NCBI GenBank assembly: GCA_036704125.1
Contig: DATNQI010000018.1
Coordinates: 1 to 46,641 of the forward strand
Reading direction: 5' to 3'
DNA: 46,641 bases
From: Pantanalinema sp.
GTDB taxonomy: Bacteria; Cyanobacteriota; Sericytochromatia; S15B-MN24; UBA4093
In this document: positions 23,507-26,847 of the stretch, in pieces
How the letters are laid out: every line of letters starts with the position of its first letter
Position numbering within the stretch: position 1 is the first letter of the stretch
The notes under the pieces: model-generated
Told to the model about the DNA's origin: nothing
Databases searched by the model: none
What the model saw: only the letters and a program-made list of their open reading frames with translations
Translations under genes and position numbers: made by a program

Positions 23507-24550
23507 TCAGACCGGGAGCTTGGGCGCCTTCTGCCTGGGGAACTCGCCCGTCAGCGCGTTCAGGAAGGCCACGATGTCCTTGGTCTGGGCGTCGGTGAGG
23601 GTGGCGTTGAGCTGGGACTTGGCCATCACGCGCACCGCCTCGTCGAGGGTCTTGACCGAGCCGTTGTGGAAGTAGGGCGCGGTCCTGGCCACGTTGCGCC
23701 AGGTGGGCACCCGCCACACGTGGCGGTCCGCCTCGGCGCGGGTCACCTCGTAGCGGCCCGGGTCCTTCTTGAGCTGGTACCTGGCGTCGTAGGCGCTCGC
23801 GACGCTCGGGAAGCGCTGGTAGAAGCCGGTCCCCTCGGGCAGGGGGGGCCCCGAGAAGTTGGGGCCGCTGTGGCAGCTGACGCAGCCCAGCTGCTGGACC
23901 AGGCCCATGCCGCGCCTGGCGGCGCTCGAGAGGGCCGACGCGTCGCCCTTCACGTAGCGATCGAAGGGGCTGTTGGGGGTGACGAGGGTGCGCTCGTAGG
24001 CCGCGATCGCCCCGGCCGCGTTGTCGATGTTGAGCCCGTTCTTGCCGTAGACCGCCTCGAACTGCTTGACGTAGCCGGGGATGAGCGACAGGCGCTTGAC
24101 CACCGCGGCGTGATCGGGGTTGCCCATCTCGACCGGGTTGACCATGGGCCCCTTGGCCTGCTCCTCGAGGCTCGCGGCGCGGCCGTCCCAGAACTGGACC
24201 GAGAGGTGGGCGGCGTTCCAGACGGTGGGCGCCGAGCGGCCGCCGGTCTTGCCGTGGACGCCGAGCGAGGTGGCGCGGTTGTCGTCGCCGCCCTTCATGA
24301 CGTCGTGGCAGGAGTTGCACGAGACCGCCCCCGTGCTGGAGAGCCTGGGGTCGAAGTAGAGCTGGCGGCCCAGCTCGACCTTGGCCGCGGTCATGGGGTT
24401 GGAGCTGGGCACGGGCGGCTTCTCGGGCAGGATGAAGGCCTTCCACTGGGCGCGGGCCTCGGCCGGGACCGCGGCCGAGGCCGCGCCCCCCAGGGCGGCG
24501 AAGGTGGCGATCGCCGCCAGGGCTCCGATCGACAGACGTGTTGCGCGCAT
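23507..24550 (-). CDS. Di-haem cytochrome c peroxidase (CcpA/MauG family)
   Basis: This 347-residue protein has a signal peptide (MRATRLSIGALAAIATFAALGGAASA) and two c-type haem sites, CNSCH and CVSCH, spaced as in bacterial di-haem peroxidases. ELGRQLYFDPRLSSTGAVSCNSCH and the later RVPTWRNVARTAPYFHNG are family signatures. The enzyme reduces hydrogen peroxide in the periplasm with electrons from a small cytochrome or quinol. Starts are possible at ATG 24568 and 24550. I prefer 24550, because AAAGGGAG precedes it and because a Per-box palindrome ends 5 bp before the other. The likely promoter and operator lie in the gap behind the phaB terminator, suggesting peroxide-responsive control. Confidence 0.92.
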   Translation of the reverse strand: MRATRLSIGALAAIATFAALGGAASAAVPAEARAQWKAFILPEKPPVPSSNPMTAAKVELGRQLYFDPRLSSTGAVSCNSCHDVMKGGDDNRATSLGVHGKTGGRSAPTVWNAAHLSVQFWDGRAASLEEQAKGPMVNPVEMGNPDHAAVVKRLSLIPGYVKQFEAVYGKNGLNIDNAAGAIAAYERTLVTPNSPFDRYVKGDASALSSAARRGMGLVQQLGCVSCHSGPNFSGPPLPEGTGFYQRFPSVASAYDARYQLKKDPGRYEVTRAEADRHVWRVPTWRNVARTAPYFHNGSVKTLDEAVRVMAKSQLNATLTDAQTKDIVAFLNALTGEFPRQKAPKLPV

Positions 24551-24572
24551 GGGGCTCCCTTTCATCATCGAT

Positions 24573-24587
24573 TTAGAATCATTCTAA
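24573..24587. promoter_or_regulatory. Per box (PerR/Fur-family operator) before peroxidase gene
   Basis: TTAGAATCATTCTAA is a perfect 7-1-7 palindrome and fits the Per-box consensus TTAnAATnATTnTAA at every fixed position. It lies 22 bp before the peroxidase ATG and overlaps the predicted transcription start, a position expected for repression. Confidence 0.8.
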
Positions 24588-24591
24588 TCCA

Positions 24592-24621
24592 TTAATACAA
24601 GCAAGCGGCGAGGGGAGTCAA
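24592..24621 (-). promoter_or_regulatory. Candidate promoter of the peroxidase gene
   Basis: On the minus strand TTGACT (24621-24616), an 18-bp spacer and TATTAA (24597-24592) make a good sigma70-type promoter. The start would fall near 24585, inside the Per box. The -35 lies in the loop of the upstream operon's terminator. Confidence 0.55.
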
Positions 24622-24635
24622 GCCCCCCTCGCCGC
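24605..24635 (-). terminator. Terminator of the PHA operon
   Basis: An 11-bp perfect stem (GCGGCGAGGGG with CCCCTCGCCGC) carries a 9-base loop. Read on the minus strand it lies 22 bp after the phaB stop and is followed by TTGCTTGTATT, a moderately T-rich tract. Confidence 0.75.
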
Positions 24636-24656: not shown

Positions 24657-25397
24657 CTAGAGGACCAGCCCCCCGTCCACGCTCAGGACGTGGCCGTTGA
24701 TGAAGTCCGAGTCGTCCGAGGCCAGGAAGAGGAAGGCCTTGGCGATGTCCGAGGGCTGCCCCAGGCGGCCGACGGGGGTCTTGTCCTTCATGGCGCTGAG
24801 CACCTTCTCGGGCATGGCCTGGGTCATCTCGGTGGCGATGAAGCCGGGGGCCACGGCGTTGGCGGTGATGCCCTTGCGGCCGAGCTCCTTGGCCCAGGTC
24901 TTGGTCATGCCGATGACGGCCGACTTGGTGGCGGCGTAGTTGGTCTGGCCGAAGTTGCCGAAGAGGCCGACCACGCTCGTGGTGGTGATGATCTTGCCCT
25001 TGCCCTGGGCGAGCATGTGGGGCAGCACCGCCTGGGTGCAGTTGAAGACGCCCTTGAGGTTGACGTCGATCACCCGGTCGAACTGATCCTCGGTCATCTT
25101 GGCCAGGGTCGCGTCCATGGTGATGCCCGCGTTGTTGATGAGCACGTCGATTCGGCCCCAGTCGGCCACGACCCGATCGGCCAGGGCGACGAGCTCCGAG
25201 CGCTTGGTCACGTCGACGCTCAGGCCCATGGCCTTGCCGCCCGCCGCCTCGATGGCGGCGACCGTGGCGGCCACGCCCTCGGCGTCGCGATCGCATACCA
25301 CGACCCGGGCGCCCTCGCTTGCGAGGGTGAGGGCGCTCTGGCGGCCGATGCCGCGACCCGCGCCGGTGATGATGATGACCTTGTCCTGAACGCGCAT
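24657..25397 (-). CDS. phaB: Acetoacetyl-CoA reductase (PhaB/FabG-type SDR)
   Basis: This 246-residue short-chain dehydrogenase has the cofactor motif TGAGRGIGRQ, NNAGITMDATL, the catalytic TTSVVG Ser and the YAATK site. The end is INGHVLSVDGGLVL, within the core shared by FabG and PhaB. PhaB reduces acetoacetyl-CoA to (R)-3-hydroxybutyryl-CoA with NADPH, supplying the PHA synthase. Context decides: the gene begins 18 bp after phaC in the same operon, with GAGGT at good spacing, and ends before a terminator. A housekeeping FabG would normally sit with fab or acp genes, none of which is here. No ketothiolase (phaA) gene is in the window, so acetoacetyl-CoA must come from elsewhere. Confidence 0.85.
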   Translation of the reverse strand: MRVQDKVIIITGAGRGIGRQSALTLASEGARVVVCDRDAEGVAATVAAIEAAGGKAMGLSVDVTKRSELVALADRVVADWGRIDVLINNAGITMDATLAKMTEDQFDRVIDVNLKGVFNCTQAVLPHMLAQGKGKIITTTSVVGLFGNFGQTNYAATKSAVIGMTKTWAKELGRKGITANAVAPGFIATEMTQAMPEKVLSAMKDKTPVGRLGQPSDIAKAFLFLASDDSDFINGHVLSVDGGLVL

Positions 25398-25415: not shown

Positions 25416-26489
25416 CTAGTTGGAGCGGGCCGAAAGCCAGGCGTTGAGCCCGGGGAAGAACTTCTGCTTGGCGCTGCGCCCGGCGACCAGCCCCACGTGG
25501 CCGGCCTTGATGGCCAGCTGCTCGGCGTCCTCGCTCGAGATGTGAGCCAAGAGCGGGGTGGACTGGCAGACCTGCACGATGTGGTCCAGGTTCGCGACCA
25601 CGCTCAGCACCGAGCAGCGGATGTTCGAGAGGTCGACCTTTCGGCCGCCCAGGCGCATCTCGCCCTTGATGAGCTTGTTCTGCTGGTAGAGATCCTTGAT
25701 CCACTGGCGGAAGGCCTCGCCCGCGAACGGGATGCCGTCGTTGATCCAGTGGTTCATCACCAGCCAGCCCTGCACGAACTGCTCGTCGTCGAGCCGGTCC
25801 ATGAGCGTGGCGTAGGGGCTCATGTAGTTCTGGATCGGCTTGAGCAGCTTGGATCCGAACTCGATGAAGTCGGCGGGCACCAGCTTGTAGGCGTCCACCA
25901 CCCGGTCCACGTCGTAGTGCTTGGGGTCGAGCCAGGCGGAGAAGAGGCCCGCCTCCGAGAAGTCGACGGGGGTCGCCATCAGCACCAGGTTGCGCAGGGG
26001 CGCCTCGGGGTGCAGGGCCGCGTACATGGTCGCCATGGTGCCGCCCATGCAGTAGCCGATCAGGCTGAAGTCCTTGGCGCCCGAGTGCTTGAGCACCTGC
26101 TTGACCGCGCGCGGGATGTAGTCGAGCACGTAGTCGTCGAACTTGAGGCCCGCGTCCTCCTCGCCGGGGGTGCCCCAGTCGAGCAAAAAGACGTCGTACC
26201 CCTGTTCGACCAGGAACTCGACCATGCTGTTGCCCGGCGCGAGATCGAGGATGTAGGGGCGGTTGATCAGGGCGTAGACGAACAGGATCGGAGTCGCGTG
26301 CTTGCGATCGCCCTTGGCGTGGTAGCGGTACAGCTTGGCCTTGTTCTTGGTCCAGACCACGTCCTTGGGGGTCTGCCCCACCATGGGCGCCAGCGGGCGC
26401 TTGGCGTAGGCCATGGCGGCCTCGGTCCGCTTCAGGGCGCGCTCGAAGTCGACCCGGGCCTGGTCCATCGATTCGGTGTGGCTGCTCAT
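25416..26489 (-). CDS. phaC: Class III poly(3-hydroxyalkanoate) synthase catalytic subunit
   Basis: This 357-residue enzyme has the size of class III/IV synthases rather than class I/II (about 590). The lipase-like box is GYCMGG with catalytic Cys147. The other triad members are Asp302 (NLDHIV) and His331 (AGHVGLVAG). In the class III enzyme of Allochromatium vinosum the triad is C149/D302/H331, so the spacing is nearly identical. FVYALINRPYILDL and DWGTPG are also family motifs. The enzyme polymerises (R)-3-hydroxyacyl-CoA on the granule surface and needs a PhaE or PhaR partner, and a candidate lies two genes upstream. ATG 26489 is preceded by AGAGGA. Longer frames upstream run through an intercistronic hairpin and are rejected. 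Confidence 0.95.
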   Translation of the reverse strand: MSSHTESMDQARVDFERALKRTEAAMAYAKRPLAPMVGQTPKDVVWTKNKAKLYRYHAKGDRKHATPILFVYALINRPYILDLAPGNSMVEFLVEQGYDVFLLDWGTPGEEDAGLKFDDYVLDYIPRAVKQVLKHSGAKDFSLIGYCMGGTMATMYAALHPEAPLRNLVLMATPVDFSEAGLFSAWLDPKHYDVDRVVDAYKLVPADFIEFGSKLLKPIQNYMSPYATLMDRLDDEQFVQGWLVMNHWINDGIPFAGEAFRQWIKDLYQQNKLIKGEMRLGGRKVDLSNIRCSVLSVVANLDHIVQVCQSTPLLAHISSEDAEQLAIKAGHVGLVAGRSAKQKFFPGLNAWLSARSN

Positions 26490-26517
26490 GCGAATCCTCT
26501 CGTGTGACGACATGACA

Positions 26518-26541
26518 CCCCCTCGCCTTGCGGCGAGGGGG
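26518..26541. other. Intercistronic hairpin between phasin-like gene and phaC
   Basis: A perfect 10-bp stem (CCCCCTCGCC with GGCGAGGGGG) has a four-base loop that reads GCAA, a stable GNRA tetraloop, in the operon's transcript. It may stabilise or partly terminate the message, giving more phasin than synthase. Confidence 0.6.
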
Positions 26542-26553
26542 AGCGGAAGAAAG

Positions 26554-26847
26554 CTAGCGCTCGACGAAGGAGACGCCGCCGGGGATCCAGCGCATGGTGT
26601 CGCGCACGCCGCCCTCGACCACGCGGTTGAAGGCGTCATGGTTGGCCTTGGCCTGCGAGAGCAGGGTCTCGGTGAGCTTCTGGCCCTCCATGCGGCTCGA
26701 GCGAGCCTGCTCCAGCCAGGCGCTGGCGAGGGCGTCGGCCTGCTCCTGGGCCCAGAACATGGTCTGGATGCCGGTGCGGGCCATGCCCCAGAACTCGCCG
26801 GTCAGCGAGGAGGCGTCGAAGAGGGGGCGCTCGGTGGTGGCGTTCAT
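26554..26847 (-). CDS. Phasin-like small protein
   Basis: This 97-residue protein is helical throughout and has no Cys. Helices such as FWGMARTGIQTMFWAQEQADALASAWLEQA are amphipathic with a broad hydrophobic face. This suits phasins, which coat PHA granules and control their number and size. Phasin families are highly divergent, so I rely on size, composition and position: it lies between the PhaE/R-like gene and phaC in one operon. AAAGGAGA precedes the start by 6 bases. The end (RDTMRWIPGGVSFVER) is not helical. It could alternatively be part of the synthase complex. Confidence 0.65.
   Translation of the reverse strand: MNATTERPLFDASSLTGEFWGMARTGIQTMFWAQEQADALASAWLEQARSSRMEGQKLTETLLSQAKANHDAFNRVVEGGVRDTMRWIPGGVSFVER

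Follow-up and report, generated by a model that had tools for sequence, protein, structure and literature searches.

The closest described systems are the PerR regulons of Bacillus and Clostridium, in which a Fur-family repressor acts through a 7-1-7 palindrome over promoters, regulates its own gene and controls peroxide-defence targets. The Per box consensus of B. subtilis is TTATAATNATTATAA, as quoted in PMC545781. PerR is set apart from Fur by two canonical residues, N61 and D104; Leptospira PerRA and PerRB have this Asn and Asp but neither a cysteinate zinc motif nor a Cys4 zinc site (PMC8638851). Peroxide induces cytochrome c peroxidase (CCP) in Leptospira. Predicted deltaproteobacterial PerR regulons have perR clustered with rbr and cytochrome peroxidase genes, with the box over the -10 (PMC545781). 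In R. sphaeroides, Irr binds the ccpA and mbfA promoters, ccpA by EMSA, and loss of Irr raises peroxide resistance (PMC3413700).

The locus described here is a PerR-type regulon member, a familiar kind of gene switch in an unstudied lineage. It lies in the window, the whole 46,641-nucleotide stretch of DNA analysed, which is contig C18 of a 3.5 Mb draft genome (G000). With Bacillus and Clostridium it shares the type of repressor, the 7-1-7 layout, autoregulation and the kind of target, but the half-site is TTAGAAT here and TTATAAT there, and the G000 regulator lacks the Cys4 zinc site. The likeness to Leptospira, a different phylum, rests on the regulator and not on the operator or the target set, PerRB being the best NCBIfam match. 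The deltaproteobacterial regulons resemble it in gene content but differ in operator consensus sequence. Based on the sequence comparisons below, we assign a probability of roughly 0.8 to the reading that the palindrome upstream of the CCP gene is the operator for a Fur-family repressor of PerR type, encoded on contig C99, which would control CCP within a peroxide regulon.

The palindrome and its recurrence

The perfect 15-letter palindrome TTAGAATCATTCTAA lies at 24573-24587, upstream of the CCP gene. In gene orientation (minus strand), the predicted PerR/Irr-type operator reads TTAGAATGATTCTAA. Allowing up to 3 mismatches, a search of the 46.6 kb finds this one site and no other; shuffles would give 0.02. 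The original prediction described it as a perfect fit to the Per-box consensus. Sequence and palindrome are as described, but one position in each half differs from TTATAATNATTATAA, so "perfect" applies to the palindrome.

The site is one of four perfect boxes in G000, against ~6.5e-5 expected from composition and 0 in the reversed-pattern control. All four precede redox or regulator genes. On C99, 5 bp separate the box from the start codon of the Fur-family gene that heads a perR-trxB-ahpC cluster (L014:3023-5108). ahpC itself, which comes after perR-trxB, has no box directly upstream (best, 6 mismatches). Contig C45 carries a perfect box and a second box (1 mismatch) upstream of rubrerythrin (PF02915), and on C17 the box stands before an old-yellow-enzyme/NemA-like gene (FMN oxidoreductase, PF00724). 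The halves of the CCP box, TTAGAAT, are like those of the genome's own perR box.

Sites with 2 mismatches on C11 (before a valyl-tRNA synthetase-like gene), C62 and C79 were judged unconvincing, and none had a redox gene as target; the reversed-pattern control already reached 9 matches once 3 mismatches were allowed. Just upstream of the rubrerythrin box is a short ORF on the minus strand (L015:3573-3965), whose match to a CxxCxxCC domain stays below threshold.

The window is ~70% GC, and the 45 bp around the palindrome are 71% AT, a local richness from which such a palindrome could arise by chance. Four perfect sites where some 7e-5 are expected, every one of them preceding a functionally linked gene, leave that explanation with a negligible probability. 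The operator is almost certainly real and its regulator very probably identified.

Boxes also recur in genomes of the same class. The perR orthologues of G001, G003, G007 and G015 each have an upstream box with 2 mismatches, and that of G017 a perfect one. Other boxes were found upstream of Prx/AhpC genes (G003, G017), a Prx-glutaredoxin gene (G015), rubrerythrin and katG (G010), and dps and trxB (G005). Gene order matches that of G000, with perR-trxB-ahpC in G001 and perR-trxB in G003. Sites with 2 mismatches in the AT-rich G015 were fewer than control counts and were left unused. Of the 17 class genomes, 5 have OxyR above its curated cut-off (G011-G014 and G016), and these are also the only 5 that give no match to the C99 PerR; G000 and the PerR-bearing relatives have no OxyR above that cut-off. 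PerR and OxyR apparently replace one another between families, as a trend rather than a strict rule, because in some of the remaining genomes weak matches to PerR could represent Fur. The same-class genomes are without Photo_RC reaction-centre genes, and the same-phylum set held photosynthetic genomes with Photo_RC and ~2 Mb genomes without. We infer that the host class is one of non-photosynthetic Cyanobacteriota, probably Sericytochromatia.

The Fur-family regulator

The original prediction proposed a search for a PerR or Fur homologue in the genome, which yielded a PerR-type regulator on C99 and a separate Fur paralogue on C48. The C99 protein scores best with the NCBIfam PerRB model (169 bits, compared with 82-85 bits for Irr), and its best structure matches in the PDB are the PerR structures 5nl9 and 2fe3. 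Its recognition helix has the N in TVYN, at the B. subtilis N61 position, where the Fur paralogue of G000 has TAYR. At B. subtilis position 104 it has the D in LLDI, where the Fur paralogue has E. Aligned with 2fe3, it retains all five metal ligands, including H37, D85, H91 and H93. These PerR residues are also common to an Irr-like protein. The structural Cys4 zinc site is missing from the C99 protein, which has no CxxC pairs; because Leptospira PerRA and PerRB are likewise without it, this site, common but not universal, is a non-defining feature of PerR. The protein falls under the NCBIfam cut-offs of all PerR models (169 bits against 250 for PerRB, a narrow "exception" type model built for one group) and under those of Irr/IrrA (82-85 bits against 150-170). 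As in known PerR systems, the box stands in the regulator's own promoter and before peroxide-defence genes.

The 7-1-7 layout is common to Fur-family operators and a Fur paralogue is present on C48, so the box might instead be a Fur site that makes CCP iron-repressed. The genome, however, holds separate Fur-type TGAGAATNATTCTCA sites (C70, C102 and a variant at C8), and only the C99 protein has the PerR Asn, making control by Fur very unlikely. The likely Fur boxes of this type are at C70:42445 near a methyltransferase gene, at C102:56958 near a Porin_O_P-type porin gene, and at C8:33480.

The identification of the palindrome as a Per-type box has thus gained considerably over the original prediction, through a PerR-type regulator with a box in its own promoter and through boxes before peroxide-defence genes in the genome and the class. 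Operator and regulon are strongly supported because of the recurring sites in genome and class, the PerR signature residues, and the OxyR-bearing relatives without the regulator. At the level of sequence, the regulator, the box and the common target set are evident.

The peroxidase and the Irr alternative

The gene after the box (23507-24550, minus strand, start codon at 24550) encodes a 347-aa di-haem cytochrome c peroxidase (CCP_MauG). A PF03150 domain (8.1e-60) and two CxxCH haem motifs read from the sequence, CNSCH and CVSCH, confirm the original assignment. A Shine-Dalgarno sequence, AAAGGGAG, was read at 24555-24562 on the minus strand. The protein is ~66% identical to a Chromatiales homologue and at most 50% identical to homologues of its own class. 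In a quick tree, it grouped with a Bdellovibrio sequence in a clade made up mostly of Pseudomonadota and Bdellovibrionota, and the class's own CCPs fell elsewhere. The gene was likely acquired horizontally. No close CCP orthologue carrying the box was found in near relatives, so this particular site has no phylogenetic footprint in the family.

A second reading makes the box an operator of Irr/ICE type and treats the C99 regulator as functionally Irr-like, reporting iron or haem status and controlling CCP as a haem enzyme. The Irr/ICE operator of alphaproteobacteria is similar, TTTAGAA...TTCTAA, and the operator TTTAGAANNNTTCTAA presumably fits the ICE consensus as well. Binding of Irr to the ccpA promoter in R. 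sphaeroides (PMC3413700) points the same way. Among CCP homologues of other phyla, 10 of 42 have an upstream box with at most 2 mismatches (0.09 expected). A homologue of the C99 regulator (E<1e-14) is present in 9 of 12 genomes with a box at up to 3 mismatches and in 0 of 14 others (Fisher p = 7e-5, with kinship of genomes ignored). Two of these regulators, scanned or aligned, have Irr/IrrA as their best-scoring models, with scores slightly below the cut-offs. The G000 regulator itself, in contrast, has a PerRB score twice its Irr score, and the regulon seen across genome and class, made up of perR-trxB-ahpC, rubrerythrin, KatG, dps and Prx, serves peroxide defence, where that of Irr concerns iron and haem. 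None of the sites examined had a haem-synthesis target. We consider control by an Irr-like regulator unlikely, though the best placed of the alternatives to PerR.

The predicted operator type is a recurrent arrangement on CCP genes across phyla. Because the motif is equally of Irr/ICE type and recurs in this way, the signal sensed in G000 is deduced from the target set. Gammaproteobacterial CCP genes with TTAGACTNAGTCTAA-like boxes (L024, L025, L030, L032, L040, L049, L050, L051, L055 and L063) were observed, many of the boxes with TTAGACT halves, and most genomes with these CCP boxes have a PerR/Irr-like regulator.

Candidate promoter, putative terminator hairpin and proposed mechanism

On the minus strand, the order is a PhaC-type polyhydroxyalkanoate (PHA) synthase gene (25416-26639; PF00561 4.8e-19, PF07167 PhaC_N 1.1e-9), a PhaB/FabG-type short-chain dehydrogenase gene that ends the upstream operon (24657-25397; PF13561 4e-70), a hairpin, the palindrome and CCP. 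The hairpin (24605-24635, minus strand), a putative terminator of the phaC-phaB-type operon, has a 13-pair stem, a 5-nt loop and a short T-rich tail, TTGCTTGTAT, and starts 21 nt past the stop codon of the upstream gene. The 61-nt hairpin segment folds with an MFE of -34.9 kcal/mol (z = -3.8). Across positions 6001-46000, the part of the window covered by the scan, no terminator-like match is stronger than this GC-rich hairpin, which has at least 5 T in the 8 nt after the stem, although the U-run is weak. The hairpin of the original prediction is real and well placed to end the PHA operon.

The best sigma-70 match of the intergenic region in a PWM scan is TTGACT-N18-TATTAA, and 2% of 1000 shuffled sequences score as high. 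The candidate -35 TTGACT is at 24616-24621 and the candidate -10 TATTAA at 24592-24597 (both minus strand), 4 nt before the operator. This -10 is weak, and the pair does not pass the promoter scanner's stricter rule. The predicted start falls inside the box, in agreement with the expected overlap. Of the -35 said to lie in the hairpin loop, TTGA does so, whereas the remaining CT belongs to the stem.

Box position varies among the predicted promoters of the regulon. In G000, G001, G003 and G007, the perR promoter is built from TTGACN-N17-TATTCT-type elements and its -10 falls within the box. At rubrerythrin the box occupies the spacer, and at the old-yellow-enzyme gene it covers the -10. The CCP promoter would fit a third layout, in which TTGACT-N18-TATTAA is followed by the box. 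The Prx-glutaredoxin gene of G015 has the same 4-nt distance (TTGACA-N17-TAACCT, 4 nt, box). The perR-type register was rejected for CCP, since only the much weaker TTGCTT-N18-GATTCT fits it. At the old-yellow-enzyme promoter (L016:3485-3512), TTGACG lies between short imperfect inverted repeats (GCCAGG...CCTTGGC), where a terminator is not expected.

Promoter position, repression and peroxide sensing are the inferred parts of the PerR reading. The C99 repressor dimer, loaded with Fe(II) or Mn(II), would sit on the box over the CCP start site and block RNA polymerase. Peroxide would oxidise the metal site of the repressor, which would then leave the box. CCP would thereby be made along with perR-trxB-ahpC, rubrerythrin and the old-yellow-enzyme gene.

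The DNA shared by terminator and promoter had been proposed as a possible link between PHA-operon transcription and peroxidase expression. The geometry held, with a real hairpin and a plausible candidate promoter; the coupling stays a hypothesis. A coupled switch, in which transcription of the PHA operon occludes or feeds the peroxidase promoter in addition to PerR control, draws on the co-directional arrangement of operon and CCP, on the real hairpin and on the best -35 sitting in it. A close overlap is nevertheless expected, because the intergenic region is short (~106 bp), and the terminator tail is ordinary. Rho, absent from Synechococcus-type cyanobacteria (PMC13289151), is encoded in G000, so termination need not depend on this hairpin and has other routes. 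We regard such a switch as improbable; most likely, the hairpin insulates CCP from the PHA operon.

A broader scenario can be drawn, at similarly long odds. A zinc-free PerR from the PerRB/Irr side of the Fur family would run peroxide defence in non-photosynthetic Cyanobacteriota through an Irr-like box, would have captured a horizontally acquired peroxidase and, through a -35 in the PHA terminator loop, would tie peroxidase output to polymer-operon transcription. The overlap of terminator and promoter would matter only if expression were coupled. A common operator type on CCP genes across phyla, with PerR-like or Irr-like regulators, bears on the divergence of both sensor families. Herein, our findings outline a concrete predicted peroxide regulon in uncultured Cyanobacteriota of a non-photosynthetic class, where PerR and OxyR apparently interchange between families.
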